Assembly (NCBI GenBank): GCA_016937945.1
Contig: JAFGVP010000113.1
Coordinates: 1-55,277 of the forward strand
Direction: 5' to 3'
DNA length: 55,277 nt
Source: Pontiellaceae bacterium
Lineage (GTDB): Bacteria > Verrucomicrobiota > Kiritimatiellia > Kiritimatiellales > Pontiellaceae
Shown: positions 18,693-37,742 of the stretch, piece after piece
Layout of the letters: every line of letters begins with the position of its first letter
How positions within the stretch are numbered: position 1 is the first letter of the stretch
Made by a program: the position numbers and the translations under genes
The notes under the pieces: model-generated
The model's database searches: none
Told to the model about the DNA's origin: nothing
The model's input: only the letters and a program-made list of their open reading frames with translations

Positions 18693-20105
18693 TCAGGGTT
18701 GTGCCGGCTTCATACAGACCGCTTTCCGGTTGGCGTTCAGGGCGTCGTAGCTATCCATCATTTCCCCGGGATCCTTTTCATCATCCAGCCATTTTAACAA
18801 CGTATTGCGCAGACGGTTACGTATCGCATCGTATTCCGGTTTCAGCGCAAGATTATCCAGTTCAAATGGATCAGAGATTGTGCAATAGAGTTCCTCCGGA
18901 GGCCGCTTGACCATGCGCTGAACAATCTTTCCGGCATAGGTATCGCCGCCGGCGGCGGCCTCTTCCATGGAGGCAAACCAGCTGGATGGTTTTTTCCCGT
19001 TAATGTAGCGGCCCACATAGTTCAATTCGGAATCCAGATTCATGATAAAGCGATAGGTTCCGTCGTAGACCGTCCGGATGGGATACGGCTTGCCCTCCGG
19101 CACATTATTATGAATTCCAAAGACCACATCGCGGTGCTTATCGGTCATGCCCAACAGCACATTCATGAAACTGCGCCCGTCAAAATCGGCGGCGGCGGGC
19201 GTACCACCGGCCAGCTCGACAAAGGTCGGTAGTACGTCGCAGATCTGCACGAGTGCATCCGTTTCGCGCCCTGCCTGAATGTGACCGGGCCAGCGAGCGA
19301 TAAATGCCGTGTGCAAACTCAGGTCCCAACAGTTCCATTTGCCGCCGGGAAACTGCCAGCCCTGCTCGGAACTGAACAGGACGACGGTGTTTTCATCGAG
19401 CCCGTTCTCCTTAAGCAGACGCATGATATCGCCCACCTGCTCATCCAGCTTGGCCACTTCCGCCAGATACTGCGTCAGGTTGCTGCGAATCTCCGGCGTA
19501 TCGGCAAGCGCAGCGGGCAGCGTCAGTTCGGAGGCATTAAACTGAGATGGATCGCCGTCGGTCCAGGGCCGATGCGGATGCGTTGAGCAGATGTAGAGCG
19601 CAAACGGCTGATCAGCATTTCGAGTCAGGAACGGCACGATTTTTTCCGGATTGTAATGATTGATCTTTGCCACACAGTTTTTTTCAAACCCGGCCACGGT
19701 CTCGAACGGGAAGTTGGATTCCGGATGAAAGTGCCGCTTGCCGCTAATCCCGACACGATAGCCCAGCTCCGAAAGCCAGGTCGGCGCACTGCGGGTTCCC
19801 GGATGGGTGGCGGAATGATTCCAAGCACATCCGCTGCGGTAAGGATAGAGCCCTGTATAGAGCTCGGCGCGAAACGGCACGCACATCGACATCGTCACAA
19901 AGGCCTGATTAAACTTCAAACCTTCCTGTGCAAGCCGATCAATATTGGGTGTCGCCACATTTTTCCCGCCATAGCAGCCCAGTGAAGAGTGCGCACAGTC
20001 ATCAGCCAATATGAACACCAGATTGGGGCGTCGGACTTCCGCAGCATGGGCCATGGTACAGCCAAGAAGAACCGTCAACGCCCAATATCGTTTCGTCCCA
20101 ATCAT
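18693..20105 (-). CDS. Secreted formylglycine-dependent sulfatase
   Basis: A type I (S1 family) sulfatase that hydrolyses sulfate esters on a polysaccharide or oligosaccharide. The signal peptide MIGTKRYWALTVLLGCTMAH is followed by the metal-binding start NLVFILADDCAHS. The formylglycine motif CVPFR has its cysteine at residue 75, so it is of the Cys type needing FGE or anSME. Later conserved elements are YRVGISGKRHFHPES, STHPHRPWTDGD, VVLFSSEQGWQFPGGKWNCW and FIARWPGH. The length of 470 residues fits heparan N-sulfatase-like members; the substrate is not certain. GGAGGTAGGA precedes the ATG. It follows the sulfatase fusion by 34 bp, probably in one operon; a small GGGCG/CGCCC hairpin (20124-20137) sits in that gap. 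Confidence 0.93.
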   Translation of the reverse strand: MIGTKRYWALTVLLGCTMAHAAEVRRPNLVFILADDCAHSSLGCYGGKNVATPNIDRLAQEGLKFNQAFVTMSMCVPFRAELYTGLYPYRSGCAWNHSATHPGTRSAPTWLSELGYRVGISGKRHFHPESNFPFETVAGFEKNCVAKINHYNPEKIVPFLTRNADQPFALYICSTHPHRPWTDGDPSQFNASELTLPAALADTPEIRSNLTQYLAEVAKLDEQVGDIMRLLKENGLDENTVVLFSSEQGWQFPGGKWNCWDLSLHTAFIARWPGHIQAGRETDALVQICDVLPTFVELAGGTPAAADFDGRSFMNVLLGMTDKHRDVVFGIHNNVPEGKPYPIRTVYDGTYRFIMNLDSELNYVGRYINGKKPSSWFASMEEAAAGGDTYAGKIVQRMVKRPPEELYCTISDPFELDNLALKPEYDAIRNRLRNTLLKWLDDEKDPGEMMDSYDALNANRKAVCMKPAQP

Positions 20106-20139: not shown

Positions 20140-23100
20140 TCATAATTTAAAAAAAGCCTGATTGCTCCCGGCCGCTGCGCCGAATTCCATCCAGCGGATC
20201 GTGCCGTGTTCATTGGTGACCGATCCGGAGGGAATCCACGGCAAGGCAAGATTCGTGCTGCACTGCGGCTCAAAAACCATGTTCGGCTGTACATTCCAAT
20301 ATACACGAGGCGTCGGCTCAATCTGAGCCAGCTGCCCCACCGGCTGTCCCACGGTCGTGATGGAGCTGTTGTTCACCTGAGTCAGCTCCACGGAGACATT
20401 ATCATAGTAAACCGTGCCTTCATGCGCGGCCGTGTCAAAAATCAGGTAACGCGCCGAGTTCGAGTTATTGAACCGGAATGCGCCGGACGCCACCGAGCTA
20501 CCGTTCACGAAGATTTCATAGGTCGACGAATAGTCGGACGTATTATCGTTGAAATCAGAAATCACCATCCGGAGCGCCACCGGCGTCCCGACCGGCAATC
20601 CACTGACCAGCATTCTGTTAATGTCTCCGGTGCCGCTCTGCGATCCGGCGTCCATCCGAAGGAATACCCCCAGCCCTCCGGCACCATCCGTACCGACCTG
20701 CAGGCCCAGATCAACATCACCAATCACCAGATTGGAGACATCGGCAAGACTCAACGACATACGCTGCGCATACTGGCTGCCGACCACATCAACATCCATA
20801 TCAACGGAAACCTCATAAACGTTCCCAGCCAGATAGTTGCCGAAATTAAAGGCGCCGGCCCCGTCAGGACTCAGTTCAAAACGGCCGTTTGCATTCCGCG
20901 GAATCACGGCCATCCGGTTGCCGCCGACACTGAAATCAGTGGCAGGACGTGTTCCATCGCCGTATCGATACCCCCAAAGATCCGATGCCGCAGAACCGCC
21001 GACACGCGAGGCAAACTCATAGTTCACGCCGGCATTCTCGGAAAAGCCGGAACTGGGCGCGCTGCCTCCCGTCACGGAAAAATCGTCGTAAAAGATGACT
21101 CCGGTTTCGACCGTCTGATTAGTGATCGTCACCGTATCGATTCCGTTGCCGAGCACCGTTTCGTTATACCAGGCCATCACCTGCGCACGCATGTCTGCAA
21201 CCCGATCCTGTAACGACGCCTCACCGGACAGATTGGTGGTCTCCTCCTTGTCGACGGAAAGATCGAACAGTTTCAGCTCAGAACCATCGGGATTAACCAA
21301 CAGCTTATAGTTTCCGGAACGCATCGCCAGCATCGGCGATGCCGAACCGAGACCGGATACGGTGCCATATTCCCAGAATTGCGGGCGACGCCGCGTCCGG
21401 CTGCTTCCCTGAAATACATCGCTCATGTCCTCCCCGGCAAACGGGGCATTGGGCAGTTCAATGCCGGCAAAGCTGGCGTAGGTCGGAAGCAGGTCCAGCG
21501 TTGATACGGCGGTCGTCGTATTCACCGTTCCTTCGGGAACCAGCCCTGGACAGCGCACAATAAACGGCTCGCGAATACCGCCTTCCCATAGATTGCCTTT
21601 GCCGCCGCTCAGTCCGCCGTTTCGGCGGAGGATGCCGTTAATGGTGTCGTTCGGAGCTCCATTATCGCCGACAATCACAATCAGCGTGTTGGTTCCGACA
21701 CCAAGATCGTCGACGGCCTGCACAAGGCGTCCGATTTCCTTATCGAGCTCATGCATTTCGGAAAGGAAGAGCTGGGCGGTGGTATTGTCTGTGATGTGAT
21801 CAAAGTCGTCTTCCTTACCCGGATCCGTGTTGTATGGAGAATGGACATCATTGTACGGAACGTGCACATAGAAGTTTTTGTTCGACTGAACGGCCCGCGA
21901 GATAAAGTCGATGGCGGCATCGGTGTGGATATCGGCCCCCTCGTACCATTCGGCCCAGGTAATGTTCCCCTCCACATCCGCATTTGCCGACGAGAGCCCG
22001 TCGCCGTTATACAGCACCCGGTCGCCCATCCCTTCAAAAGCCACAAGCGACTCCTGAAAACCATAGGCCTGCGGGAACGGCGCGTGGTTGACATCGCGAC
22101 CGCCGCCCATGTGCCATTTTCCAAACTGCCCGGTCACATAACCGGCATCGCGGAACAGGCGCGGGGCCGCCACCGTATATGGATCAAGCCAATCGTTCAT
22201 ATTGCGGTTGTCATTAGCGCTCTTGTCGTTCAGAAAACTGTATATGGCATAGCGCTGCGATTCGATTCCGGTCATCACGCAAACACGTGAAGGAGAGCAG
22301 ATCGGGGCCCCGGTGTAGCCTTCGGTAAAACGAATCCCCTGCGATGCCAGCGAGTCGAGATGCGGTGTCACAACGCCGCCGTCCTTGGTCGTTACGGGAT
22401 TCCCGTAACACGACATATCGCCCCATCCCATGTCATCGATAAAGATAAACAGGATGTTCAGACCATGCGCGTCATAATCACCGGGAACCACCACAAAGGC
22501 ATCCTCGGACAGCGTGGATTCGATCCCGCCGGCCACGCTGCTCACGGCATAGTAATAGTGATCGTAGGCAGACACCGACGTGTCCTCGAAAAACGATCCG
22601 CTCACACCGGTCTGGAACGGTGTACCGTAACCGCCCCGAATGGTGGAGCGATAGATATTATACGTTTCCGCGCCGGTTCCCTCCGGCCACTCCAGTCGCA
22701 CGTGACCATTGGTCGGGAAGGCATCCAGCGATTCCGGCGGAAGCAGAAGAACCGTTCCTTCCACCACAGCAAACGCACTGCCTACGCCGGCAAACCCACC
22801 GTCCGGCGACAGATCCGTTCGATTGGCGGAACTGCTGATATACGACGCCAGCGTTTCCCAGCCCTCCAGATCGCCGGCGGCAGATGCCTGATAATAGCGG
22901 GAGCCTGCACTGCTGTCGGAATCCGGATAGTAAAAGTTATGGATATTTCCGCCATAGCTGGCAGGCGACACGCTCGCATTCTGATTGTTAATGAAATCGC
23001 TGAGCGTGGCATATTTGCCGATGTCCCCTTCCAGATCGCCCCCTTCGTACACAACGTAGTATCCGCCGGTGAAACCGTCGTAGCTGCAGCCATGAATGCC

Positions 23101-23454
23101 GCCGGCGCCGTACACGCCGCTGCTCTCGGCGACCGGCGCATCACCGGAAAGCCATGAAGCGAGCGTATTCCAGCGGTCGACTCCGCCGGAAGCATTAACT
23201 CCATACACCATCCCGTCCGGCGCCTGCGTAAAGCCGAGATAGGTTCCATACGATGCGATGGTGGTCACCGGGGTACCGCCCGAAAAGGTGTTGTCTTCAA
23301 TCGGATTGATTCCCGAAGCGGCTCCCGAAAAGGAACGGATTACTCCACTGCCGTTCACGGTATAGATCATCGCGGCATTCACGACTCCGCAGAATCCGAG
23401 CACCCCTGCCATCGCGGCGCTTTTAAACCGCCTGTTCCATTTAACCTGTCTCAT
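20140..23454 (-). CDS. Multidomain secreted sulfatase with N-terminal repeat domain and FN3
   Basis: An 1104-residue exported sulfatase. Order: signal peptide (1-28); an unnamed repeat domain (about 30-232) with GGVDRWNTLASWL, GDIGKYATLSDFI and GDLEGWETLASYI; an FN3-like domain (about 238-325, ending YYYAVSSVAGG); the S1 sulfatase core (about 331-790); a beta-rich domain with YFDN-type features (about 830-1030); and a C-terminal module with FEPQCSTNLALPW. The sulfatase has ILFIFIDDMGWGDMSCYGN, the formylglycine motif CSPSR (Cys386), FGKWHMGGG, FYVHVPYNDVHSP and VIVGDNGAP. It probably binds its glycan through the added domains. The N-terminal domain recurs in the neighbouring gene. An AAGG stands 11 bases before the ATG. 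Desulfation is secure; the substrate is unknown. Confidence 0.9.
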   Translation of the reverse strand: MRQVKWNRRFKSAAMAGVLGFCGVVNAAMIYTVNGSGVIRSFSGAASGINPIEDNTFSGGTPVTTIASYGTYLGFTQAPDGMVYGVNASGGVDRWNTLASWLSGDAPVAESSGVYGAGGIHGCSYDGFTGGYYVVYEGGDLEGDIGKYATLSDFINNQNASVSPASYGGNIHNFYYPDSDSSAGSRYYQASAAGDLEGWETLASYISSSANRTDLSPDGGFAGVGSAFAVVEGTVLLLPPESLDAFPTNGHVRLEWPEGTGAETYNIYRSTIRGGYGTPFQTGVSGSFFEDTSVSAYDHYYYAVSSVAGGIESTLSEDAFVVVPGDYDAHGLNILFIFIDDMGWGDMSCYGNPVTTKDGGVVTPHLDSLASQGIRFTEGYTGAPICSPSRVCVMTGIESQRYAIYSFLNDKSANDNRNMNDWLDPYTVAAPRLFRDAGYVTGQFGKWHMGGGRDVNHAPFPQAYGFQESLVAFEGMGDRVLYNGDGLSSANADVEGNITWAEWYEGADIHTDAAIDFISRAVQSNKNFYVHVPYNDVHSPYNTDPGKEDDFDHITDNTTAQLFLSEMHELDKEIGRLVQAVDDLGVGTNTLIVIVGDNGAPNDTINGILRRNGGLSGGKGNLWEGGIREPFIVRCPGLVPEGTVNTTTAVSTLDLLPTYASFAGIELPNAPFAGEDMSDVFQGSSRTRRRPQFWEYGTVSGLGSASPMLAMRSGNYKLLVNPDGSELKLFDLSVDKEETTNLSGEASLQDRVADMRAQVMAWYNETVLGNGIDTVTITNQTVETGVIFYDDFSVTGGSAPSSGFSENAGVNYEFASRVGGSAASDLWGYRYGDGTRPATDFSVGGNRMAVIPRNANGRFELSPDGAGAFNFGNYLAGNVYEVSVDMDVDVVGSQYAQRMSLSLADVSNLVIGDVDLGLQVGTDGAGGLGVFLRMDAGSQSGTGDINRMLVSGLPVGTPVALRMVISDFNDNTSDYSSTYEIFVNGSSVASGAFRFNNSNSARYLIFDTAAHEGTVYYDNVSVELTQVNNSSITTVGQPVGQLAQIEPTPRVYWNVQPNMVFEPQCSTNLALPWIPSGSVTNEHGTIRWMEFGAAAGSNQAFFKL

Positions 23455-23517
23455 GCTTTACGTACCTTCTGTATTTCATTTTCAAGAGTCCTCTTAACAA
23501 CAGCACATTGCAAGAGG

Positions 23518-23531
23518 CCAAAATAAGTCAC
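23518..23531. promoter_or_regulatory. Candidate operator, CCTAAATAA-type motif
   Basis: CCAAAATAAGTCAC, upstream of the sulfatase fusion. It resembles 14-base sequences in three other promoter regions of the island (26644, 32543, 47331). Inferred from comparison by eye only. Confidence 0.3.
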
Positions 23532-23572
23532 ATGGATACCCTCGGCATCCATGCGACATCGTCCATTCGGGG

Positions 23573-25741
23573 TTACTTTACGCGGATGCGATAGAACGTC
23601 CGGTTGTCGGCGGGGGCGACCGAAACCGACACATATCCGTTGATGCTTTCCAGATCGGTGGCGACATCCACCCAGCCGGAATCAACGAGCCGGCTCTTCG
23701 ATTGCAGCACATACAGCGTACCGTCGCTTGTTCCGTCTGCAGTAACAATGATCTGACCATCCACATGCCCGATCGAAACCCTTCCGACTCCTCCATTCGA
23801 AAAGGTGGCGAACGCGCCCACGGTTGTCACCCCCGTGCTGAACCCGCCCAACCGGAAGGTTTCGGCCGGTGTTCCCTTAACATAGTCGGCCAGCGTGAGC
23901 CAGCCCTCCAGGTTTCCGTTGCCGGCAATCTGGAAGTAGAGCGCACCTGAAGCGGCATTCGCGTAGGATCCGTAGTTGTGCGGGGCATCATCGAAGGGAT
24001 AATAGAAATTACAGACATTTCCGTTGTAGCTTGCCGTGTAGTTGGTAGTCGGCGTATTGGCCAACAGGGCCGCCAGGTCGGGATATTCGCCGATATCGCC
24101 TTCATAGGTTCCGCTTCCCTGCACGGAATAGAACCCCTTTGTATTTAGATCATAACTGAAGCCGTGTACTTCGGCACTGAGCCATTCACCAAACCCTTCG
24201 GAGGAAACGGTGACCGCATTGACGTCATCGATCCACGACGTGAGATCCGGCCATTCCATCACATCGCCGAACGAGTTGATTCCGTAGATCCTGCCGTCCG
24301 GAACGGATGCAAAACCCTGGTATTCGCCATAGTCCGGATTTGTCGCCACGGCGACCCCGTTGGTCACATGGCCCTGCCCCATGCAGCTGATGCCGTTGGA
24401 CGCCACGCTGGTGAATGCATAGATCTCACCCGTATCCAGCACAAAGAAGACATTCTTCGGACCGGTCAACGGCATAACCTTCACACTTGTTTCTATACTG
24501 GCAGTACTCTGCAGTCCGGCATAATCCACAGCACGGATTACATAGTAATAGGTTGTTCCGATCTCGACCTCCTCGTCCGTATAGGAGTTTCCGGTCAGGT
24601 CGGATGCAATCGGATCTCCATAGGAACCGCTGACGGTGGAACGGTATACTGAATAGGACTTCACATCAGGGTCCCCGCTGTCATTCCAAGACAGTTCAAC
24701 CCATGCGCCATAGGGATTCTTTGCGGCAAAGCTTGTCGGCGCCGCCGGCGGAACCGTATCGCCGGTGTCATAGGGAGTCGCCTCAACCTCACCGGAGAGA
24801 ATGGACTCTGTGCTGCCGGATACGCTGACGACGCTGTAGTAGTACGTCGTAAAATTTTCTGCTGTTGCATCCGTATAGGTCAGGCCGGTGATTCCGGTCT
24901 GCAATGCCACGCCGTATTCACCGCTGACGGTGGAACGGTAGATCGTGTAGCTGACGGCATTCTGTCCGGCACTCCATTCCAGCAGAACCGAGCCGCTGTT
25001 TACCGGATCGGCGCTTACGGATGCCGGCGGCAACAACGCCTCCGGATCATCCGCATAAATAAAATCAAACGTCAGGCCGTTCACGCGGAAGCCGCCTACA
25101 TCACCGGAAAACAGAGCGGCGACCGGATTCGTACTTCCGGCCGTGGCAATCAGGTTCAGACTGCTCACATCAATCGTGCCGGCCGTTATTTCCTCTTCCT
25201 GCGGATGAACGGTCATCGATTCCCGCGTAGCGAGATTTACAACCGTAAACGATTCATCATACGGATCCGTATTGATTCGTCCAATATTCTGCACATCGAT
25301 GCCGGTAATCTGGACCGCCAGCACCGATGGCAGATCGGTGATTTCATCAATGATAAAGGAGAGCCCTTCGTGGTTTGACCCATCGGCACCAATGCCGCCA
25401 CCGTTCGGATTATCCGAAACCCCCATGAAGCCGTTTCCATCACGGTCAATCCCGCCATCGACCAGTTTGTCGCCCAGTGTCACAGCATTTGTTGATGCGT
25501 TTTTCATGGCGTCCATGGATATACCGATCGTACTGCCGGCAGCTCCGGACAATCCGGCGGAACCGCTCACGTTAAACCAGGGACTTGGCGTGGAGGCATT
25601 ACCCTCCGAGTCAATATTCACATTAAGGTTGATGCTCGACCCCGGGTTGGCGTCGGAAACAGAATCCACAACGATTGCAGCCTGCGATCCTGCTGCAGCC
25701 AGGCCGACAAATACTACCAGTGACCGAAAGGTGTTAGTCAT
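23573..25741 (-). CDS. Secreted FN3 protein with PEP-CTERM-paralogue head and repeat domain
   Basis: A 722-residue exported protein without a recognised catalytic domain. The N-terminal about 215 residues are a close paralogue of the whole PEP-CTERM protein encoded next upstream, sharing DRDGNGFMGVSDNPNGGGIG and DVQNIGRINTD-type segments. Two FN3-like domains follow (IYRSTVSGEYG and VYRSTVSGSYG mark them), then a domain of about 230 residues shared with the start of the sulfatase fusion (YGINSFGDVMEWPDLTSW, GDIGEYPDLAALL, GNLEGWLTLADYV). A C-terminal module (YVLQSKSRLVDSGW to FYRIRVK) ends it, with no PEP-CTERM tail. The ATG at 25741 has AAGGAG seven bases upstream; an ATG at 25759 lies before the SD. 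A glycan-binding or surface role is inferred. Confidence 0.8.
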   Translation of the reverse strand: MTNTFRSLVVFVGLAAAGSQAAIVVDSVSDANPGSSINLNVNIDSEGNASTPSPWFNVSGSAGLSGAAGSTIGISMDAMKNASTNAVTLGDKLVDGGIDRDGNGFMGVSDNPNGGGIGADGSNHEGLSFIIDEITDLPSVLAVQITGIDVQNIGRINTDPYDESFTVVNLATRESMTVHPQEEEITAGTIDVSSLNLIATAGSTNPVAALFSGDVGGFRVNGLTFDFIYADDPEALLPPASVSADPVNSGSVLLEWSAGQNAVSYTIYRSTVSGEYGVALQTGITGLTYTDATAENFTTYYYSVVSVSGSTESILSGEVEATPYDTGDTVPPAAPTSFAAKNPYGAWVELSWNDSGDPDVKSYSVYRSTVSGSYGDPIASDLTGNSYTDEEVEIGTTYYYVIRAVDYAGLQSTASIETSVKVMPLTGPKNVFFVLDTGEIYAFTSVASNGISCMGQGHVTNGVAVATNPDYGEYQGFASVPDGRIYGINSFGDVMEWPDLTSWIDDVNAVTVSSEGFGEWLSAEVHGFSYDLNTKGFYSVQGSGTYEGDIGEYPDLAALLANTPTTNYTASYNGNVCNFYYPFDDAPHNYGSYANAASGALYFQIAGNGNLEGWLTLADYVKGTPAETFRLGGFSTGVTTVGAFATFSNGGVGRVSIGHVDGQIIVTADGTSDGTLYVLQSKSRLVDSGWVDVATDLESINGYVSVSVAPADNRTFYRIRVK

Positions 25742-25782
25742 GGCATTCTCCTTTTTCATTATTCATTCAGTCCATTGATATT

Positions 25783-26544
25783 CTACATCGCGAAGAAACG
25801 ACGCACGGCAATCAGACCGAGGCCGCTCACGGCAACCATCCCCAGCGTCTCCGGCTCCGGAATTACTTCGATGGTCAGGCCGTCTACACGGAAACCACCG
25901 ACATCACCCGAAAAGATGGCTGCAACCGGATTCATGCTTCCGGCAGTGGCAATCAGGTTCAGGCCGCTGACATCAATCGTGCCGGCGGTAATTCCGTCAG
26001 TGAGCGGCGTATAAGTGAATGAATCCCGCGTGATCAGGTTCACGATGGTGAATGACTCATCGGCGGCATCGGTGCCGGCGCGACCGATATTCTGGACATT
26101 GATTCCCGTAATCTGGATAGACAGCGAAGGATCGAGTCCGGTGATCTCGTCAATATTGAAGGCAAGTCCTTCATGATTCGATGCATCGGCACCGATCCCG
26201 CCGCCGTTCGGATTATCGGTAACACCGATAAAGCCGGCGGCGTCCCGATCGATTCCGCCATCCGTCAGCTTGTCACCCAGCGTGCCGGCGGCCAGCGAAA
26301 CATTTTTCATCGCATCGATGGTGACCCCGATGGCGCCGTCAAAAGCACCCGACTCGGTTGTCCCCCCGGAAACACTGAACCAAGGACTTCCGGTAGACGC
26401 GGCGCCGGTTCCGCCAATAAACACATTCATGTCGATGGTGGATGCCAGCGAGCCGCCGGCGGTCGACTCAATGGAGATGGATGCCGACGCTCCCACGGCA
26501 ACCAGACACGCAAGCGATACTGCTGCGGTTATTCTTTTATTCAT
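25783..26544 (-). CDS. PEP-CTERM sorted exported protein
   Basis: A 253-residue secreted protein. A signal peptide (MNKRITAAVSLACLVAVGAS) leads, and the C-terminus has the PEP-CTERM sorting signal: IPEPETLG, a hydrophobic segment (MVAVSGLGLIAV), then RRFF. The body is beta-rich with many Gly, Asn and Asp, including DNPNGGGIGADASNHEG and GITAGTIDVSGLNLIATAGS. It should be processed by an exosortase, not in this window, and attached at the cell surface or in matrix. The downstream gene starts with a paralogue of this protein. AGGAGA precedes the ATG. Its molecular role is unknown. Confidence 0.87.
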   Translation of the reverse strand: MNKRITAAVSLACLVAVGASASISIESTAGGSLASTIDMNVFIGGTGAASTGSPWFSVSGGTTESGAFDGAIGVTIDAMKNVSLAAGTLGDKLTDGGIDRDAAGFIGVTDNPNGGGIGADASNHEGLAFNIDEITGLDPSLSIQITGINVQNIGRAGTDAADESFTIVNLITRDSFTYTPLTDGITAGTIDVSGLNLIATAGSMNPVAAIFSGDVGGFRVDGLTIEVIPEPETLGMVAVSGLGLIAVRRFFAM

Positions 26545-26752: not shown

Positions 26753-27382
26753 TTACTCAAGCCCGGAGAGAATGGCTGCGGCTTCGGCCCGAGAGTTGAC
26801 CTGCAGCTTTTCGTAGATCCGGCGGATATGGCTGTTGAGGGTGTGAATGGAAATCTCCAGATCGTCCGCGATCACTTTATAGGAGCGCCCGCGCGCCATC
26901 TGCTGGAGCACTTCGAGCTGACGTTCCGAAAGATCCCCGATACCGTCGGTCCGGCGCGCCGCCGGCTTTTGAAAGGATTCCACCACCAGACGGGCAATTG
27001 AGCTGTCCATAGGCGACCCGCCCTCGGCCGATTTCCGAAGTTCACTGACCAGCGAACCGACAATGCTTCGTTTAAGCAGATAACCGATTGCACCGGCCTC
27101 CAGCGCCTGGAAAATGAGTTCGGACTCATCGTAGGCGGTGAGCATGACAAAGTCGGTATTTTCAAGCCAGGGTTTCAGGCGCCGGACACACTCAATTCCG
27201 TTGGAGCCGGGCATGTTGATATCCATCAGCACAATATCTGTTGGATTGGCAAGAATTCCCTTAATCGCCTCTTCCGCATTGCTGTAAAGGTACTTGCACT
27301 CAAAATCAGCTTCACCGAAAAGCTTATCGGCAATCAGTTCGCGCGTGCCTCGGTCATCATCCACGATCGATATTGTCTGCAT
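26753..27382 (-). CDS. NarL/LuxR-type response regulator
   Basis: A two-component transcription factor. The receiver domain ([27 protein letters not shown] with the phospho-accepting aspartate at residue 54, [16 protein letters not shown]) is followed by a LuxR helix-turn-helix (LSERQLEVLQQMARGRSYKV, IHTLNSHIRRIYEKLQVNSR). It starts just after the stop of the kinase gene, so the two are co-transcribed and form a cognate pair. Several starts are possible: GTG at 27409, ATG at 27391, ATG at 27382. The last is used because GGAG lies ten bases before it. Likely regulates the island, perhaps through the downstream PEP-CTERM/sulfatase genes. It is paralogous to the regulator at 50374. Confidence 0.92.
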   Translation of the reverse strand: MQTISIVDDDRGTRELIADKLFGEADFECKYLYSNAEEAIKGILANPTDIVLMDINMPGSNGIECVRRLKPWLENTDFVMLTAYDESELIFQALEAGAIGYLLKRSIVGSLVSELRKSAEGGSPMDSSIARLVVESFQKPAARRTDGIGDLSERQLEVLQQMARGRSYKVIADDLEISIHTLNSHIRRIYEKLQVNSRAEAAAILSGLE

Positions 27383-27415
27383 ACTCGCCATGCTCCATAC
27401 ATTGCACACGCATCA

Positions 27416-30232
27416 TTACGTAGCCAGCTCTATTTCGATTTTCGTTCCGCCGGCCTCTCCATTCTTCGCCTGGAACCGGCCACCGGCCATCCGCATACGG
27501 CGGGCCATACTTTCGAGCCCCCGCTTGAATTCAGCATCATCGTCTTCCGGGAGCCCGCAGCCGTCGTCTTCAATCGTCAGGTAAACGGAACAGTTCTTCA
27601 CCTGTGCCGAGAAAATCACCCGGCTTGCCGAAGCATGCTTGACCACATTGTTGAGGGCTTCTTTGACACACAGGAAGACGTTATGGCGGACCGGCCCGGA
27701 AATCATGCAGTCCGGGACACTGATCGGCATATCAAGGTCGCACTCAATCCCCGCCTCTTCCATAAAGCCGGCGGCAAACTTGCCCAGATAGCCCAGCAGA
27801 CTGCGAAGCGTATCGTTGCGCGGACGAACCACCCAGACAATTTCATCCAGCGACCGGACCAGCTTTCCGGACACCCGGTCAAGTTCAACCAGATGGCGTG
27901 GCGCATGCGTCCAGTCCTGATTGCGGAATGCCATGGAAAACTGATCGCACAGCAGACTGATACGCGTCATCTGCGATCCCATTTCATCATGAATGTCCAT
28001 CGCAATACGCGTGCGTTCCTCTTCCACCGCCTTCTGCATTTCCGCAAGAATCAGTTTCCGGCGGTTCAGTCGGTCGGCGATCGCCAGCGCCAGTAGCACG
28101 GCAATCAGCAGGCTTCCTCCGTAAAGAAAAAACCGGAACCAGGGGCGCTGCCAGAAAAAAGGAAGAACGTGAATACGGATCACTTCCGGCTCCGCATTCC
28201 ACCGGCCGTCCCGATTGGCCGCCAGCAACTCAAAGCGATAGGTTCCAGGAGACAGATGCTGAAAGTTGGCTTCCCGTCGATTGCCAAGCTGTCGCCAATC
28301 TTCTTCCTGCCCGACCATGCGGCATTTAAAACGGATGCGTTCCGAGGAGACATAGTTCAGGGCGGAAAACCGGATATCCAGCCGATGTACTCCAGGGCCG
28401 ACTTCCAGTTCATCAACACCCGAAACTTCCCTTCGGCCGTCATTCACCACCATTTCGTGGATACTCAGGGTAACCGGTTCTTCTGAGCGCAGAATCTTGG
28501 CCGGATCAAACATGAGCAGCTCATTTTCACAGATGACCCCGATGGTCCCGTCCTTTTTCCGGCACATCGTGTGAAGCGATGATTCAAAGTCGAGGGTCGG
28601 GCTGACACCTTCACTGCGGTCAATCAGAATCGGGGCAACAGGATCGGCCGCCACGGTTGGCGCACGGCGCAGCAGTTCTTCCTCGACAACGGCAATGCCT
28701 GCCTCGGTTAACAGCCACAGTCGATCATAATCATCTCGAAGCATCTGGGTAATGACATGCTGTTCAAGAGGAATCCTACGGAAACGGCTGCCGGCATAAC
28801 GGTAAAGACCGCCGCCACAGGTTCCAACCCACATCCCCTGCCCATCGGAATCAGGCAATAATGCCGAAACATAAATCCGGGGCAGTCCCGACTCCTCACC
28901 CAGCACCCGACAATCCGTCCCGTCCCAGACGGCGATCCCGCCGGTCTCCATGCCGATCCAGATTGTATTTCCCGGACCGTGCTCAAGGCAGCGAATGCGG
29001 GATAACGAAGCATCGGGAAATTCCACGGACTGCCAGCGAACCTCAGGTTGTTTCTTCCACAGCCCTTGCTCACCGCCGGCCCAAAGGGTTCCGTCATCGT
29101 CTTCAAGAAATGCCCATATGTGGTCCACCTGCTTATTCATTGGGAGCACATTTCTATATCCCGCCGAATCCACCCGTAAAAGAAACTGACGATCCAGATC
29201 GCTCCAGACAATTTCAGCGTCATCTTCGTAAACCGCGAATATACTGCGAGCCAGTGCGGACGGACGCGCCAGCTGAAAGAATTCCCCTCCTTCAACACGC
29301 CAGAGTGATTCGTCATTACTGCCCATCCAGATGCGGTTATCCCGGGCACAAATGGATACCGGCCGGGTAAAGGCGTTGCCGATGATGTAGCCGGAATAGC
29401 GATCGTAGCGAAACGATTGCAGCCCCGACTTGGTGCCGAGCCACAGGGTATGTTCGCGATCTTCTGCCAGGCTGAGTACCGTGTGCGACAGCAGGCCGAC
29501 ACCGCGGTCCAGTCGCGTCACCGTATGATCCGGATGCATGATCCACACTCCACCGTAGGTCATCCCGGCAACCACATCGCCATTGGAGAGTTCCAGAAAA
29601 CGGATATCCTGTGTCACATCCCATGGCACGGAACCCCATCGCCGGACCACTTCGCCATCAAGAACCTGAACCACATCGCCATCCCGCTCGGTCCAGCCGT
29701 TGGCGGGGCCGGGCAACGGATCAAATACCGGCCACTCCGATTCCGGCACCGGACGCATTACAGGCTGACCGTCCCTGCTTACCGGCATTCGGTTGCCGTT
29801 TTTAAATACCGCCCAGAGGCTTTCGTCGGAACACAAAACAAAGCGGTCTATGGAGTCGTTCACATACTCTTCCGCACCGGTAATTTCATAAAAACGGTTA
29901 CCGATCCGCACGCTGATCCGGCCCGTTTCGTGACCGAGGAATAAATTACCGGCACGGTCTTCCGCCAGCTTCATGACCCGATTGTCAGGCAGCCCGGCGG
30001 TCTGCATGTTGAAGACCTCGAACTGCGCACCGTCAAAACGCGCCGGACCGTTCAGCGTAGCCACCCAGATAAAGCCGTTTTCACGTTGAATGACATCCTG
30101 AATCTGATTAAACGGCAGGCCGTCACTGACCTGCCAGGATTGCAGGCGATAGGAAGGAATTCGGACAAGCTCCATCTGGTTGAACTTGACCTTCCCATGA
30201 CAGAACATCGCCAGCAGGCTGGCGGCAGACAT
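27416..30232 (-). CDS. Propeller/Y_Y_Y sensor histidine kinase
   Basis: A membrane histidine kinase of 938 residues with a periplasmic two-component-regulator propeller. Many blades are visible (GFIWVATLNGPARFDG, HTLWLGTKSGLQSF, NTIWIGMETGGIAVWDG, QGMWVGTCGGGLYRY). A Y_Y_Y domain (IRFKCRMVGQEEDWRQLG, LSPGTYRFELLAANRDG) precedes one membrane helix (about GGSLLIAVLLALAIADRLN). The HisKA_3 phosphoacceptor helix is [20 protein letters not shown] (His about 748), followed by a HATPase domain (VKEALNNVVKH, IEDDGCGLPED). Such kinases sense oligosaccharides. The start is unsure: GTG at 30235 or ATG at 30232, neither with an SD. The hydrophobic signal-like stretch continues upstream of both. See findings. 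Confidence 0.9.
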   Translation of the reverse strand: MSAASLLAMFCHGKVKFNQMELVRIPSYRLQSWQVSDGLPFNQIQDVIQRENGFIWVATLNGPARFDGAQFEVFNMQTAGLPDNRVMKLAEDRAGNLFLGHETGRISVRIGNRFYEITGAEEYVNDSIDRFVLCSDESLWAVFKNGNRMPVSRDGQPVMRPVPESEWPVFDPLPGPANGWTERDGDVVQVLDGEVVRRWGSVPWDVTQDIRFLELSNGDVVAGMTYGGVWIMHPDHTVTRLDRGVGLLSHTVLSLAEDREHTLWLGTKSGLQSFRYDRYSGYIIGNAFTRPVSICARDNRIWMGSNDESLWRVEGGEFFQLARPSALARSIFAVYEDDAEIVWSDLDRQFLLRVDSAGYRNVLPMNKQVDHIWAFLEDDDGTLWAGGEQGLWKKQPEVRWQSVEFPDASLSRIRCLEHGPGNTIWIGMETGGIAVWDGTDCRVLGEESGLPRIYVSALLPDSDGQGMWVGTCGGGLYRYAGSRFRRIPLEQHVITQMLRDDYDRLWLLTEAGIAVVEEELLRRAPTVAADPVAPILIDRSEGVSPTLDFESSLHTMCRKKDGTIGVICENELLMFDPAKILRSEEPVTLSIHEMVVNDGRREVSGVDELEVGPGVHRLDIRFSALNYVSSERIRFKCRMVGQEEDWRQLGNRREANFQHLSPGTYRFELLAANRDGRWNAEPEVIRIHVLPFFWQRPWFRFFLYGGSLLIAVLLALAIADRLNRRKLILAEMQKAVEEERTRIAMDIHDEMGSQMTRISLLCDQFSMAFRNQDWTHAPRHLVELDRVSGKLVRSLDEIVWVVRPRNDTLRSLLGYLGKFAAGFMEEAGIECDLDMPISVPDCMISGPVRHNVFLCVKEALNNVVKHASASRVIFSAQVKNCSVYLTIEDDGCGLPEDDDAEFKRGLESMARRMRMAGGRFQAKNGEAGGTKIEIELAT

Positions 30233-30293
30233 CACGAAGAATTTACCAATGGATTCATGTTCAGCGTATCAGCATCCATTTCCTCGTAAACAA

Positions 30294-30327: not shown

Positions 30328-32295
30328 TTACAGGCTCAGTGTATGCACTCCTTTGGTCAGCCGGAAGATCTTCGTGCCGCCGGACCAGTTAACAGTCAGT
30401 TCAAAATCACGATCCGTATCAACCGAAATGACCGGGGCCGAGGAAGGCCCCGTCCGTGCCTCGCAAATGAGATCTGTGGTCACATCACCAAAACGGAGTT
30501 TTTTGATGCCGTGTCGATCCGTGCGCGTCAGGTTCCAGGCAAGCCGGTTATTCACTCCGTCGGGTCGAAAACCGATAATGTTTTCAATCAGCAGAGCAAT
30601 CGGGCCGCAGCCGGTCCAGCCGACAAAGTCGGGACGCGCCTCATGCTCCCGTGAACCGGTATGGCCCGATCCCTGCCGGTCCATGTCCGGCGCATACAGC
30701 TCCCAGACCGTACCCGTTTTTTTGTAGACCCGATACATAGCATCGAGATGGCGCCGGGTTGCCTCCAGCGCAAACCCTTCATGTCCCCGTTCGGTCAACC
30801 CGCGAATAATCGCATAGGTTGTAGGCGGCCACACACCGCCCCGCCAGTAACCGCCGGTAGGTTCATAAAGCTTCTGGTCTGCCGCCAGCGACGGGAATCC
30901 ATTCTTTCTCCAGAAGGTTTCCGGATCCTTAAGGTTCGCAATCAGACGGACTTCCTGCTGCTCACTGGTAATTCCGGCCAGCATCGGCCAGAAACAGGCA
31001 ACCGTCTTCCACTTGATCTGATTTCCCCGATCATCCACGTCGTAGTAGAGACCGTCCTCCTCATTCCACATCCACCGGTTGATTTTTTCGGCAATCGCAT
31101 CGGCGTGTTCACGAAAAGTCTCCGCCTTTTCCCTTTCCCCCAGCTGCTCGCACATGGCGGCAAGGTCATTGTATTGAATGACCATCTGGGCGGACATATC
31201 GACCCAGCCCGAACCGTTGCGGGGGGTGTTGTCCATTCCGGACCCGAGCGCGTTGCTCCAGTAAAGGCCATGTACGGCATCCGGCTTTCTGCGTCCGGTC
31301 TCCAGCCACTTCACATACCTTTCCAAAACAGGCAGCACCAGCTCCAGCCGGGATCGGTCACCGGTCACCCGGAAGTTTTCCATCTCCGCCCAGCTGAACA
31401 GCGGCGGGTTGATCGCCTCGGGACTCTGCTCGGAATGGTGGTCCTTTCCGGACTGCTCCCAGATCTCCCGGCAGATAAATCCGTTGTAATGCTGCTTGCA
31501 GTAAAAATTATCGAGCGACGTGATCGCCGGAAGCACATGGTTTCCATAACGGGCGAACATGATCATAAAAATCGTGTCCCACTGGAAGATATTCGGATTA
31601 AACGCCTCATCCAGATAGTTGGCGATAAATCCATTGCCCGGCTCCGGCTGCTTATAATGCCCAAATGCCAGCTCCCAGCATTTCCAGTACATGTCCAGAT
31701 AATCCGGATTATCCTCCAGCACCGGTTCCGGCAACTGATCACGACAGAGGTCGAAAACCGGCAGTTCTTCCGGCTTATACTGCTTTTTGGCAAAGTAGAT
31801 CCCCCGCTGTTTTTCCAGCGGAATAAATTCACGGGCTCCTTCGGCGGCATCGCCTTCAAGAATGATCGCCCGCAGATTCATTACAGCCTTATCCTTTTTC
31901 GACAAGGCCCGGACAACCACCCGAACTTTGCCCGCCTCGCGTATGGTAAGACTCCCCAGCTCTACAACCGTAAATTTTCCCCAGTCGCCGGTATCCTGAA
32001 CCGAGCCTTCGACGGACACCTTTCCGATTGATACCGAATACCGATTACCGGCACTTGAATCCATTGCGGCCTGCACCGCCGAAATGTGAATCGTTCCCGT
32101 CTTCTTAAGCTCAATATCCCAACTCACCGTGGCGCCGGCATTTTCCCAGCTGCCGATGCAATCCCGATCGTTCCGACTTTCATACCTAATATCATTGCCC
32201 TGAATATCTGCGTGCGACGCCGGCAGCTGCAGCTGCCCAGCGGTTCCCTTTCCGGCCATAAGCAAGCCGACCATACAAACCAAACTCTTTAACAT
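30328..32295 (-). CDS. MGH1/GH63-like secreted glycoside hydrolase
   Basis: A 655-residue exported glycosidase. After the signal peptide (MLKSLVCMVGLLMAGKGTAG) a beta-sandwich of about 120 residues (WENAGATVSWDIELKKTG) may bind sugar. The catalytic (alpha/alpha)6 barrel is of the MGH1/GH63/GH37-like type: IFQWDTIFMIMFARYG, REIWEQSGKDHHSEQSPEA, NRWMWNEEDGLYYDVDD, GYWRGGVWPPTTYAIIRGL and WELYAPDMDR. Linkage specificity is not known. A short beta-rich tail ends the chain. The ATG at 32295 follows GGGAG at seven bases. It is divergent from the GH67 gene, with an about 300 bp shared regulatory region, and upstream of the kinase-regulator pair. Confidence 0.75.
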   Translation of the reverse strand: MLKSLVCMVGLLMAGKGTAGQLQLPASHADIQGNDIRYESRNDRDCIGSWENAGATVSWDIELKKTGTIHISAVQAAMDSSAGNRYSVSIGKVSVEGSVQDTGDWGKFTVVELGSLTIREAGKVRVVVRALSKKDKAVMNLRAIILEGDAAEGAREFIPLEKQRGIYFAKKQYKPEELPVFDLCRDQLPEPVLEDNPDYLDMYWKCWELAFGHYKQPEPGNGFIANYLDEAFNPNIFQWDTIFMIMFARYGNHVLPAITSLDNFYCKQHYNGFICREIWEQSGKDHHSEQSPEAINPPLFSWAEMENFRVTGDRSRLELVLPVLERYVKWLETGRRKPDAVHGLYWSNALGSGMDNTPRNGSGWVDMSAQMVIQYNDLAAMCEQLGEREKAETFREHADAIAEKINRWMWNEEDGLYYDVDDRGNQIKWKTVACFWPMLAGITSEQQEVRLIANLKDPETFWRKNGFPSLAADQKLYEPTGGYWRGGVWPPTTYAIIRGLTERGHEGFALEATRRHLDAMYRVYKKTGTVWELYAPDMDRQGSGHTGSREHEARPDFVGWTGCGPIALLIENIIGFRPDGVNNRLAWNLTRTDRHGIKKLRFGDVTTDLICEARTGPSSAPVISVDTDRDFELTVNWSGGTKIFRLTKGVHTLSL

Positions 32296-32542
32296 CGTTA
32301 TCTCCCTTGAGGGCAATTCAAATACCCGTTATGAGGACAGGGCGTAATACCGCCGCACCATCGGACATTTTTTTGTGACGGGACAATGAAGCCGGTACTC
32401 AATAGTAAATAAAAACGACGGAGACGGAACCATTCTTATGTAGCAAGAATAGGCCACATAAAGCACCGAAGGAATCCTTGCGAACAGACGGGCATCCAGA
32501 GATCACAAAAAACACTCAAACGTTAACCATCGATAATTGACA

Positions 32543-32556
32543 CCTAAATAAGTGAC
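32543..32556. promoter_or_regulatory. Candidate operator, CCTAAATAA-type motif
   Basis: CCTAAATAAGTGAC in the divergent region between the GH63-like gene and GH67; the longer TTGACAC...GTGACAA is a near-palindrome. The rest of the 32296-32592 spacer is A/T-rich with no gene. Inference by eye. Confidence 0.35.
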
Positions 32557-32592
32557 AATACATCCTAATCACCAACCCGTACATTGGTGATC

Positions 32593-34686
32593 ATGAATCA
32601 TACTATGTCAGATAAAACAAACAGGGTGCTGTTTCTTTCGCTGCTGACCTTCTGTGGCCTCGCCGGAACCCATGCGACCGGAAAAGAAAATGCGCCGGAT
32701 GTACAGGAATCACGACTTTGGCTGCAGTATCAAGCGGAAGGAAACCCACGGCTGAAGGAATCCGCGGAGGATCTGCGGAGCATTTATGTTCCGTCATCGT
32801 CCTCGCCCATCCTGAAGAACGCCGTCAGCGAACTCTCCGAGGCCGGCACCCGGATGCTCGGACATGCAATCACGTCCGATGGCGCCGCCCAGAACGGCAC
32901 GGTGGTGCTGGGTACGCTTGCCGAGCTGAAACGCTATCTCCCGAAAGAGAGCATCAACCGGGTTGCATCGCTGAATGACGAAGGCTACCTGATTAAAAGC
33001 CTGACCGCTGCGGGGAAGCGAATCACGGTTATTACATCCCGGACGGACCGCGGCGTACTGTATGGCGTATTTCATTTTATCCGCCTGATGCAGACCGGAG
33101 AATCGCTGCGCTCTCTTGATCTGGCAGAACAGCCGGCCGTTCACCTCCGGATGCTGAACCACTGGGATAATCCAGACGGTTCCGTGGAACGCGGATACGC
33201 CGGCCGAAGCCTTTGGAAATGGGGGGAACTTCCGGAAAAAACCGATCCGCGCTATCGCGAATATGCCCGTTTCTGTGCTTCGATCGGGATCAATGGTGTG
33301 GTGCTGAACAATGTAAACGCCGACCCCGTGATGATGCGCAGCGACTATATCGAAAAGACCGCCGCGCTTGCGGATATTTTCCGTCAATGGGGAATTCGAA
33401 CTTACCTGACGCCCAACTTTGCGTCGCCCATGGTCCTGTCGAAAAATCTGAATACCGCCGATCCGATGAATCGGGATGTTCAGGCCTGGTGGGCCGACAA
33501 AACGGATGAAATATACCAGCGCATTCCGGATTTCGGCGGATTCCTGATCAAGGCCGATTCCGAAGGACAGCCCGGCCCGAAGAGCTATGACCGAAGCCAT
33601 GTCGAAGGCGCCAATATGCTGGCCGAGGCATTGGAACCGCATGGCGGCATCGTGCTCTGGCGCGCCTTCGTTTACGGCAAGAGTGAGGACCGGGCGAAAG
33701 ATGCCTATAACGAATTCCGCAAATTCGATGGCTGTTTTAATGACAACGTATTTCTGCAGATTAAAAACGGCCCGCTCGATTTCCAACCGCGCGAACCGTT
33801 CACCCCCCTCTTCGGGGCCATGCCCAAGACCTCCATCGCTCTGGAGCTCCAGATTACCAAGGAGTATCTGGGCCACTCCACCTCCTCCGCCTATCTGGCT
33901 CCTATGTGGGAAGAGTTGCTGCAGACGGATACCTATGCAAAAGGCAAGGGTTCCACCATTGCCCGAATCGTGGATGGATCGCTTGATCGTCACGCGCTGA
34001 GCTGCATCGCCGGCGTTGCAAATATCGGCGATGATGCCAACTGGTGCGGAAGTATCTTTAACCAGGCGAACTGGTATGCCTTCGGGCGCCTTGCATGGAA
34101 TCCTGACCTGAGTGCTGCGGCGATTGCCGACGAATGGATCCGAATGACCTTTTGCAGCGATGTGGAAACCTGCACAACCATCCGCAAGATGATGATGGGG
34201 TCCTACGAAGCCTGTGTGGATTACACGATGCCGATCGGTCTCAACTTTCTCTGCAACACGGGTTCACACTTCAAGCCGGATCCGGCGAAACGCAAAGCAT
34301 ATCATGGTGCCGATGCCTCGGGTCTGGGCATCAATCGTTCAAAAAACGGATCGGATTATTCCGGCCAGTATGCTCCGGAACTGCAGGCCGTTTTTAATGA
34401 CATGGATCGAATCCCGTTGAAATATCTGTTGTGGTTCCACCATGTTCCGTGGGACCATACTCTGTCCTCCGGCCGCACCTTGCTCGATGAACTGGAATAC
34501 CGTTATGATCGAGGCGTAAGTTATGTCGATACCATGATCATGGAATGGATCGGCCTTAAAGATAACGTCGATGCGGAAATACATGCCTCTGTTCTTGAGC
34601 AGCTCAAAAAGGAACAGGCATGGGCCCGGACATGGAACACCACCTGCATGGACTATTTTTCCGGCGTGGCAGACACTGAAAAGTGA
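32593..34686 (+). CDS. aguA: GH67 alpha-glucuronidase, secreted
   Basis: A GH67 enzyme that removes 4-O-methylglucuronate from xylo-oligosaccharides, or a related uronate linkage. An N-terminal signal (TNRVLFLSLLTFCGLAGTHA) is preceded by several polar residues. The beta-alpha domain (GYLIKSLTAAGKRITVITSR) leads into the TIM barrel: RMLNHWDNPDGSVERGYAG, FGGFLIKADSEGQPGP (with the likely acid Glu near residue 324), QIKNGPLDFQPREPFTPLFG (Asp about 396) and ALELQITKEYLGH (Glu about 418). It ends with LWFHHVPWDH. The ATG at 32593 is used; a GTG at 32584 and an ATG at 32605 are also in frame. It starts a GH67-phosphoesterase-GH28 transcript. Confidence 0.92.
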   Translation: MNHTMSDKTNRVLFLSLLTFCGLAGTHATGKENAPDVQESRLWLQYQAEGNPRLKESAEDLRSIYVPSSSSPILKNAVSELSEAGTRMLGHAITSDGAAQNGTVVLGTLAELKRYLPKESINRVASLNDEGYLIKSLTAAGKRITVITSRTDRGVLYGVFHFIRLMQTGESLRSLDLAEQPAVHLRMLNHWDNPDGSVERGYAGRSLWKWGELPEKTDPRYREYARFCASIGINGVVLNNVNADPVMMRSDYIEKTAALADIFRQWGIRTYLTPNFASPMVLSKNLNTADPMNRDVQAWWADKTDEIYQRIPDFGGFLIKADSEGQPGPKSYDRSHVEGANMLAEALEPHGGIVLWRAFVYGKSEDRAKDAYNEFRKFDGCFNDNVFLQIKNGPLDFQPREPFTPLFGAMPKTSIALELQITKEYLGHSTSSAYLAPMWEELLQTDTYAKGKGSTIARIVDGSLDRHALSCIAGVANIGDDANWCGSIFNQANWYAFGRLAWNPDLSAAAIADEWIRMTFCSDVETCTTIRKMMMGSYEACVDYTMPIGLNFLCNTGSHFKPDPAKRKAYHGADASGLGINRSKNGSDYSGQYAPELQAVFNDMDRIPLKYLLWFHHVPWDHTLSSGRTLLDELEYRYDRGVSYVDTMIMEWIGLKDNVDAEIHASVLEQLKKEQAWARTWNTTCMDYFSGVADTEK

Positions 34687-34718
34687 TTCGAGAGCAACCT
34701 GAATGAATGGAGATGAAC

Positions 34719-35843
34719 ATGCGGAATCTGAAAAAAACAGGCATCCTTCTTCTTGTCCTGACCTGTACGGTTCCGGCGCTTCGTGCACAGCAGCGCGCCG
34801 ATCGGCAGCAGCTTTCCAATCCAGAATCCTTCAGCATGATTCTGCTGGGCGATCCGCAGGGGTATATAAAATACGACATTAACCAGCCGTTGATGGATCT
34901 GTGCATGGCATGGATTTCGGACAACATTGCCACCCTGAATATCAAAGCCGTTCTGTGCACCGGCGATCTGGTTGAGCAGAATGAAAACATGATCATGAAC
35001 CGGAACATGGTGAACCAGACCAGCCGGGAAATGTGGACAGCCGTATCCGACAGCTTCAAGTGGCTGGATCATAAAGTGCCCTACATGATTTCTCCCGGAA
35101 ACCATGACTACGGCTACATCAATGCAGAAAACGGCATGACCCATTTTCCCGAATACTTCCCCTTTGAGCGCAATTCAATCTGGAGAAACAGCTGCGTTGC
35201 AGCTCATCCCAACCGGAACGGAATTCCCTCGATGGAAAATGCGGCGATTGAAATCAATGCGCCCAACTGGGGGACGATCCTGATCATCACCACCGAGTTT
35301 TTCCCGCGCGACGAGGTACTGGAATGGGCCGGGAATCTTGCGGCGGATGATAAATACAAGAACAGCCCCGTTATCTTCATGACGCATTCCTATCTGAATG
35401 AAGGCGAAAAGGCGGAGCGCCTTAAGCGGGAGCACTATAAAATTGAACCAGGGAATTCCGGTGTTCAGATCTGGGAAAAACTGGTACAGCCCGCTGCGAA
35501 TATTGACCTGGTGATCTGCGGGCACAGCTGTGATGGAAACGGTGAATTCAAGGATAACGTCGCCTTTCGTGTAGATAACAATACGGCCGGCCGACCGGTC
35601 TATCAGATGATGTTCAATGTCCAGACGCTTGGCGGCGGCTACGAAGGAAACGGCGGCGATGGATGGTTGCGCATTCTTGAATTCCTGCCCGATGGGAAAA
35701 CGATCAGGGTGAACACCTATTCGCCGCTGTTCGGCATATCACCGACCACCCGGCATCTGGCCCACCGAAGCGAACCCTATGACCAGTTCGACATGGTGCT
35801 TGGACCCCGGATCGCGGCGCCGGACTCACCAAAAACGGAATAG
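34719..35843 (+). CDS. Secreted calcineurin-like metallophosphoesterase
   Basis: A 374-residue exported phosphoesterase. Signal peptide: MRNLKKTGILLLVLTCTVPA. Metal-site motifs are MILLGDPQGY, AVLCTGDLVEQN (GD), ISPGNHDYGY (GNHD) and FMTHSYLNEGEKAE, with LVICGHSCDGNGEF (GHxC where GHxH is usual). The last position is altered, so the second metal site may be weak. It could remove phosphate from a sugar or act on a cyclic phosphodiester; context suggests the carbon utilisation pathway. The ATG at 34719 is chosen because GGAG stands six bases upstream. It follows GH67 by 32 bp. Confidence 0.83.
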   Translation: MRNLKKTGILLLVLTCTVPALRAQQRADRQQLSNPESFSMILLGDPQGYIKYDINQPLMDLCMAWISDNIATLNIKAVLCTGDLVEQNENMIMNRNMVNQTSREMWTAVSDSFKWLDHKVPYMISPGNHDYGYINAENGMTHFPEYFPFERNSIWRNSCVAAHPNRNGIPSMENAAIEINAPNWGTILIITTEFFPRDEVLEWAGNLAADDKYKNSPVIFMTHSYLNEGEKAERLKREHYKIEPGNSGVQIWEKLVQPAANIDLVICGHSCDGNGEFKDNVAFRVDNNTAGRPVYQMMFNVQTLGGGYEGNGGDGWLRILEFLPDGKTIRVNTYSPLFGISPTTRHLAHRSEPYDQFDMVLGPRIAAPDSPKTE

Positions 35844-35857
35844 AGAAAGACCAACAC

Positions 35858-37657: not shown

Positions 37658-37742
37658 ACAAAAAAGGCGGGATGCCTGCGATACGGTCAATGCGTGTCAT
37701 AGACGTCCTGCCCTGCCCGGCGAGCATGAATAATCCAAAGGA

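Follow-up and report, generated by a model that had tools for sequence, protein, structure and literature searches.

What kind of domain is the segment of about 210 residues that a sulfatase and its immediate neighbour both carry in a Pontiellaceae bacterium, and what might it do for the enzyme? Hundreds of sulfatases per strain are reported for Pontiella, with 521 and 480 in two strains (PMC7356697), and the substrates of many of these are described as unknown (PMC10880615). A rare module that accompanies a single sulfatase subfamily across two bacterial families offers a direct handle, through whatever the module binds.

The window (the whole stretch of DNA that was analysed, 55,277 nucleotides) carries the features described here on its minus strand. 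The sulfatase fusion (1104 amino acids, 20140..23454) consists of a secretion signal, judged by eye, followed by the domain in question (copy 1, residues 28-235; 22750..23373), an FN3-like linker (residues ~237-325; 22480..22746), a sulfatase catalytic domain (residues 333-760; 21175..22458), a C-terminal module (residues 770-1025; 20380..21147), and a tail. The catalytic domain matches PF00884 (E 6.4e-45) and PF16347 and has a CSPSR motif. A Pfam fn3 search of the fusion gave no match; over residues 237-316, the linker shares 49% identity with the neighbouring protein's first FN3-like domain. The C-terminal module is 34-35% identical to a module that precedes the propeller in Haloferula and Luteolibacter. 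The neighbour, referred to here as the FN3 protein (728 amino acids, 23573..25759), has an N-terminal module (25040..25678), two FN3-like domains (Pfam fn3 match at E 0.00028, below the Pfam cut-off), copy 2 of the domain (residues 435-657; 23789..24457), and a C-terminal tail. Its N-terminal module is 61% identical to the next upstream gene, whose 253-amino-acid product (25783..26544) has the same module and a PEP-CTERM motif, scored above the cut-off by NCBIfam TIGR02595 and below it by Pfam PF07589. The second sulfatase of the cluster (PF00884) lies at 18693..20105. Other enzymes in the neighbourhood belong to GH67, GH28, GH92, and GH43 and single out no one glycan.

The two copies are homologous. 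Copy 1 (residues 28-235) and copy 2 (residues 435-657) share 34% identity (E 2e-30), and in the blastp comparison of 20140-23454 with 23573-25759 (both minus strand), residues 1-213 pair with 408-634 at the same identity and E value. The local score between both segments is 331, whereas 1000 shuffles averaged 46.7 and never exceeded 86. The shared segment described in the initial annotation is thus borne out, and the motifs listed there are all present, in the same order in both proteins. A third copy is found in the same genome (G000:C102:655-1329). That the two copies in the window arose by a recent duplication in place was considered and rejected, since they fall in separate parts of the tree described below.

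Three repeats had been cited in each protein, at 23149-23184, 22990-23028, and 22837-22875 in the sulfatase fusion and at 24230-24268, 24062-24100, and 23879-23917 in the FN3 protein. An extra N-terminal repeat had been missed: GVIRSF in the fusion and GEIYAF in the FN3 protein. The motif G-x-[VIL]-x-x-[WYF] recurs at domain residues 10, 63, 116, and 167. In copy 1, these anchors are GVIRSF (23329..23346), in the blade closed by the N-terminus, GGVDRW (blade 1, 23170..23187), GDIGKY (blade 2, 23011..23028), and GDLEGW (blade 3, 22858..22875), spaced 53, 53, and 51 residues apart. Shuffling the domain 20,000 times never produced four such motifs at a spacing of 45-60, and the four anchors are kept in 129 of 132 cells across 33 relatives. 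AlphaFold2, which the initial annotation had proposed as a check, predicts a repeated fold in both copies, namely a four-bladed propeller for copy 1 (pLDDT 94.1, pTM 0.91) and for copy 2 (pLDDT 82.9, pTM 0.84), with the C-terminal strand predicted to pair with the N-terminal strands. The earlier reading of the segment as repeated blades holds as a predicted propeller-like fold, with the number of blades corrected from three to four; the three-bladed version was rejected because a fourth in-register repeat was found and the structure model closes with it. When the blades were compared as profiles, blade 1 aligned in register with each of the others (blade 2, E 5.6e-05; blade 3, E 0.016; blade 4, E 0.0062), with a best probability of only 38%; the match of blades 2 and 3 was weak (E 0.12), and those of 2 with 4 and 3 with 4 were both weak and out of register (E 0.31 and 0.88). 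The claim of a fourfold repeat rests on the motif-spacing shuffles and the structure models, not on these profile comparisons.

The domain matched no named family in Pfam, NCBIfam, or PDB sequences, in agreement with the earlier remark that it had no family name. A Pfam check of 25 members gave no match to hemopexin or YWTD propellers, and a profile search of PDB sequences at E<=10 matched no chain to the propeller. Pfam CBM_11 came up in 3 of the 25 members with a best E of 0.14, and its score in one of them, 11.9 bits, falls short of the cut-off of 27. In a search of the literature, none of the titles listed names such a bacterial domain. In the structural search with copy 2, the best nine matches listed are all of the hemopexin fold, at 4-9% identity. 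Foldseek against the PDB and the comparison with a viral structure library gave weak general propeller matches (TM by query <=0.45 and <=0.48, respectively, among the matches listed). The domain is a new sequence family on what is predicted to be the known four-bladed propeller fold of hemopexin.

The domain is rare, being present in 4 of 195, 3 of 387, and 1 of 51 genomes across surveys. The four genomes of the 195-genome survey that have it are the same four that have the sulfatase subfamily, which is present in 6 of the 9 propeller genomes mapped; fusion or proximity to this subfamily is seen in genomes of two bacterial families. In most propeller genomes, the propeller is fused to, beside, or sharing a genome with one rare kind of sulfatase. 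Its settings vary: fused N- or C-terminally to the sulfatase, unfused but next to it, following FN3 domains, in tandem at the C-terminus of an enzyme, and as solo copies in PEP-CTERM proteins. The Pfam PEP-CTERM motif is present in 5 of 8 solo-copy proteins (P0014, P0015, P0017, P0019, and P0020), and solo relatives occur in Planctomycetota. One GH43 protein (PF04616) has both propeller types of the window in one chain.

In a tree of 33 copies, those with the same architecture group together: the six architecture labels require five changes, the fewest that six labels allow, which implies that the module moved rarely and that each arrangement was then inherited. The unit had been called mobile; its reuse across several architectures agrees with this, and the rarity of its moves tempers it. 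The tree omits P0013, which close to its end departs from its nearest relative as after a frame shift, as well as L015 (identical to P0018), P0001 and P0008 (which are the copies of the window itself), and repeated retrievals of the same places. Its label "solo" includes L016 (a 514-residue frame running off its contig), L014a (367 residues), P0016, and L013, none of them with a Pfam match to PEP-CTERM shown. A match to L006 (E 0.003) was dropped, being partial (74 residues) and lost in the profile search. Carriage as phage or plasmid cargo was rejected, as copy 1 had no match in plasmids or phages; alignment A3 had no match in viral contigs.

What does the propeller do? It is likely an accessory unit that binds sulfated glycans, and recognition of a glycan is plausible from its association with one sulfatase subfamily. 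It shares one polypeptide with a PF00884 sulfatase and, in another protein, with GH43, an arrangement that fits a carbohydrate-binding module. The signals judged by eye suggest that these proteins would be exported. The propeller, probably non-catalytic, would then bind the glycan through a candidate site made of the polar residues of HGxSYD and GNxxNFYYPxxD, which are conserved within the inner strands of blades 2 and 3 or close to them. Among the 33 rows, the blade-specific polar residues include N143 (33/33), D153, S97, and E170 (32/33 each), and D99 and N146 (31/33 each). Solo PEP-CTERM copies may present this activity at the surface of the cell. We give about an even chance to the complete reading, in which a secreted hemopexin-fold four-bladed propeller, usually accompanied by one sulfatase subfamily, keeps the enzyme on its sulfated-glycan substrate.

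The main rival to glycan binding is protein docking, in which the propeller would bind a partner protein, either a surface scaffold or its own copy, and tether the sulfatase to the cell. Proteins are what the hemopexin domains of matrix metalloproteinases bind, so the predicted fold speaks for docking, as do the solo copies with PEP-CTERM tails near sulfatases and a second module common to the PEP-CTERM protein and its neighbours, both in the window and in genome G003. However, enzyme-borne and PEP-CTERM copies were found together in none of the eight genomes that were profile-searched whole (G000, G003, G019, G275, G414, G416, G417, and G559), and no sign of self-association was seen. Docking is rather unlikely. 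In a related proposal, a common ligand or each other would be recognised by anchored solo copies and those borne on enzymes, so that the sulfatase and GH43 partners assemble into a surface complex degrading a sulfated glycan. Since the second module shows this kind of sharing in both loci compared, and in G003 precedes an FN3-sulfatase exactly at the position of the propeller in the window, such assembly badges would be interchangeable; the proposal as a whole is improbable.

Domain shuffling in secreted proteins could also spread a rigid, exposed block that has no ligand and acts as a passive spacer or stability module. The domain is repetitive, comes with by-eye secretion signals, and is joined to FN3-like domains, often used as spacers. 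But blade-specific polar conservation and a tight link to one sulfatase subfamily are not as expected of a spacer, and this explanation has a low probability. Some other propellers are enzymes, and the conserved acids D99, D153, and E170 (31-32 of 33 rows), together with the existence of solo forms, could point to an enzyme for that same glycan, such as a lyase or hydrolase. Catalysis is nonetheless very improbable, given that the domain matched no enzyme family in Pfam, NCBIfam, or PDB profile searches and that copies in tandem behind an enzyme's catalytic part, at its C-terminus, are commoner among binding modules.

The propeller was compared with the known systems closest to it. Tachylectin-2 has five blades, whereas four blades are predicted here, with four anchors and no sequence match. 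The YWTD propellers (LRP6 and relatives) have six blades built of YWTD repeats, in contrast to four anchors of the motif given above and no Pfam match. The catalytic partner belongs with the family S1 (formylglycine) sulfatases (e.g., 7stt, 6prm, and 9fo1) by its match to PF00884 and its C-x-P-S-R motif, and its best PDB matches are N-acetylgalactosamine-6-sulfatase and kappa-carrageenan sulfatases; the propeller itself has no sequence match among PDB chains. The motif of PEP-CTERM surface proteins is present on solo relatives but absent from the two propeller proteins of the window (Pfam and NCBIfam). Hemopexin (Pfam PF00045) has a disulfide that joins the first and last blades. This has no counterpart in copy 1, with its single cysteine at residue 96, and the two cysteines of copy 2, at positions 25 and 149 in a segment of 223 residues, both lie away from the C-terminus. 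No hemopexin Pfam model matched either whole protein or the 25 domain members at E<=1, and identity to hemopexin-fold proteins is 4-10%. What the domain would share with matrix metalloproteinase C-terminal domains, serum hemopexin, vitronectin, and the plant albumin LS24 is the predicted four-bladed fold, and a hemopexin-fold family without hemopexin sequence would thereby be added to bacterial glycan degradation.

Two adjoining genes on the minus strand of the window encode a common segment of about 210 residues, predicted to be a four-bladed propeller of the hemopexin fold. The first gene codes for a sulfatase fusion of 1104 aa (20140-23454), and the second, upstream in the direction of transcription, for an FN3 protein of 728 aa (23573-25759). 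The segment occupies residues 28-235 of the fusion (copy 1) and residues 435-657 of the FN3 protein (copy 2). Its presence in both, as proposed in the initial annotation, is borne out by 34% identity (E 2e-30) and by an alignment score of 331, where 1000 shuffles reached at most 86. Pfam places a sulfatase (PF00884) at residues 333-665 of the fusion, while the fn3 match in the FN3 protein is below threshold. The segment itself had been put forward as nameless, and so it stayed: there was no Pfam match to it in either window protein, no name from NCBIfam or PHROGs, and no PDB sequence matched at E<=10 by copy 1 alone or by the profile. Across all 25 members of the domain alignment, the best matches were CBM_11 in Pfam (E 0.14, three members) and an NCBIfam hit of E 0.049 in one member.

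The repeated unit is seen as the motif G-x-[VIL]-x-x-[WYF]. In copy 1 it occupies domain residues 10, 63, 116, and 167 (with an extra, out-of-phase occurrence at 142), and in copy 2 residues 10, 64, 120, and 181 (also 146). The last three repeats are present as first described, and the fourth motif, at residue 10, had been missed. When copy 1 was shuffled 20,000 times, no such series arose. Across 33 relatives, 129 of 132 motif cells are retained; the three that are not all belong to the last repeat, and every one of the 33 rows has the four glycines. Direct profile comparison of blade with blade is convincing for blades 1 and 2 only.

The domain is rare among the genomes surveyed. In the window's order, profile searches found it in 3 of 43 genomes, each of them from the window's family (3/29); a single-sequence search gave 4 of 29 in that family, one being a weak, partial hit absent from the profile results. 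It occurs in 3 of 387 genomes of the phylum, in 4 of 195 of the Luteolibacter marinus family, and in 1 of 51 of the family of a Phycisphaeraceae genome. Protein searches returned 7, 5, and 8 proteins (the first two sets including the window's own), and one scan of genome contigs returned six loci in Phycisphaeraceae, Pontiellaceae B12227, Luteolibacter marinus, and Haloferula luteola. No match was found in the plasmids, phages, and viral contigs searched.

The propeller follows one sulfatase subfamily, defined here by the sulfatase part of the window's fusion at E<=1e-110. This close sulfatase is found in 2 of the 387 phylum genomes, and these two belong to the three that have the propeller. 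In the survey of 195 genomes, the same four carry the close sulfatase (60-68% identity) and the propeller, a coincidence with a chance of 2e-08 on the assumption, which does not hold, that genomes are independent. The genome ranked next (48% identity, E 9.1e-110) falls just short of the cut-off, and no propeller was matched in it. At E<=1e-60, which adds weaker matches (mostly 39-44% identity), 59 of the 195 have a match, so the propeller tracks the close subfamily and not sulfatases at large. The surveys overlap, since G493 and G275 agree in contig number, length, and match places and were counted as one genome. Over all surveys, six genomes have the close sulfatase, and all six have the propeller. 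The two are fused in G000 (the window's genome) and G559, and are adjacent in G275 (83 bp apart) and G003. In G416, the propeller gene is divergent and lies at a distance of about 2 kb; in G417, it is on contigs other than those of the close sulfatase, which is itself split across two contig ends. Three propeller genomes (G019, G414, and G415) lack the subfamily; their best sulfatases, of 331, 76, and 113 first-look candidates, are 41-42% identical and share the propeller's contig (7-26 kb). On L016, another contig of the G415 isolate, no sulfatase lies closer than 7.5 kb to the propeller. On L016 (3456-5629) and on L014 (5431-7613), both from Phycisphaeraceae, what appears by eye to be a sigma factor/anti-sigma pair on the opposite strand precedes solo propeller genes, the larger proteins being 28.9% identical.

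Following one sulfatase subfamily, at either chain end or unfused, the small propeller behaves as an accessory binding module. It would lie outside the cell, to judge from its FN3-like spacers, the surface sorting of solo forms, and secretion signals read by eye; there it probably holds the sulfatase on its sulfated glycan. Protein docking by the propeller is a serious rival. The strongest conserved blade-specific positions are H94, S97, D99, N143, N146, Y149, and D153 (domain numbering), each kept in 30 to 33 of the 33 rows. They belong to the inner strands of blades 2 and 3 or lie close to them, depart from the fourfold symmetry, and are our best guess at a candidate site. Some of these positions may be structural turns, and, with conserved acids among them, the domain may, less probably, be catalytic.

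Six arrangements were seen: the propeller N-terminal to a sulfatase, in tandem C-terminal to one, preceded by two FN3-like domains, solo (in most cases with PEP-CTERM), behind a sulfatase's C-terminal module (Luteolibacter, Haloferula), and in a GH43 protein. A tree of 33 copies needs five changes of arrangement, the minimum for six labels, and propeller moves are therefore few. The window's two copies fall in different parts of this tree. In the Pontiellaceae B12227 GH43 protein, one copy lies within the N-terminal-sulfatase group (support values 98/89, for an enclosing set of five) and the other, on a long branch, with the FN3 group (94/86); this chain thus joins both kinds of propeller that are neighbours in the window.

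Gene order in G003 is that of the window: PEP-CTERM protein, FN3-propeller protein, FN3-sulfatase. The G003 sulfatase starts with a module about 50% identical to that of the PEP-CTERM protein, where the window's starts with the propeller. The window's PEP-CTERM protein (25783-26544) has a module in common with the FN3 protein (61%), and the main module of its G003 counterpart (L052:16195-17022) is common to neighboring proteins (four proteins). BLAST connects the modules of one locus with those of the other only through a stretch of ~60 residues at the end of the PEP-CTERM proteins (35%, E 1e-06), and the modules appear from sequence to be locus-specific shared modules. A 994-aa sulfatase gene of G003 (L052:2675-5659) has the look of a chimera, through either recombination or assembly error: it opens with the initial portion of one sulfatase and continues as another, with 79% identity to the window's from its residue 58 onward.

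The cluster may be controlled by two proteins encoded immediately upstream (26753-30235), a Reg_prop/Y_Y_Y histidine kinase and a response regulator of the LuxR type. Beyond lies a glycan-degradation neighborhood (30328-47258) with MGH1/GH63-like, GH67, GH28 with CBM6, and GH92 proteins, a glutaminase-A-like protein, and another sulfatase, as well as a 733-aa open reading frame (38390-40591) with no Pfam match at E 0.01. The words "propeller" and "PEP-CTERM" do not occur in the main text of the two papers on Pontiella (PMC7356697, PMC10880615). According to these papers, the specific substrates of many Pontiella sulfatases are unknown, and the isolates have 521, 480, and 165 sulfatase genes.
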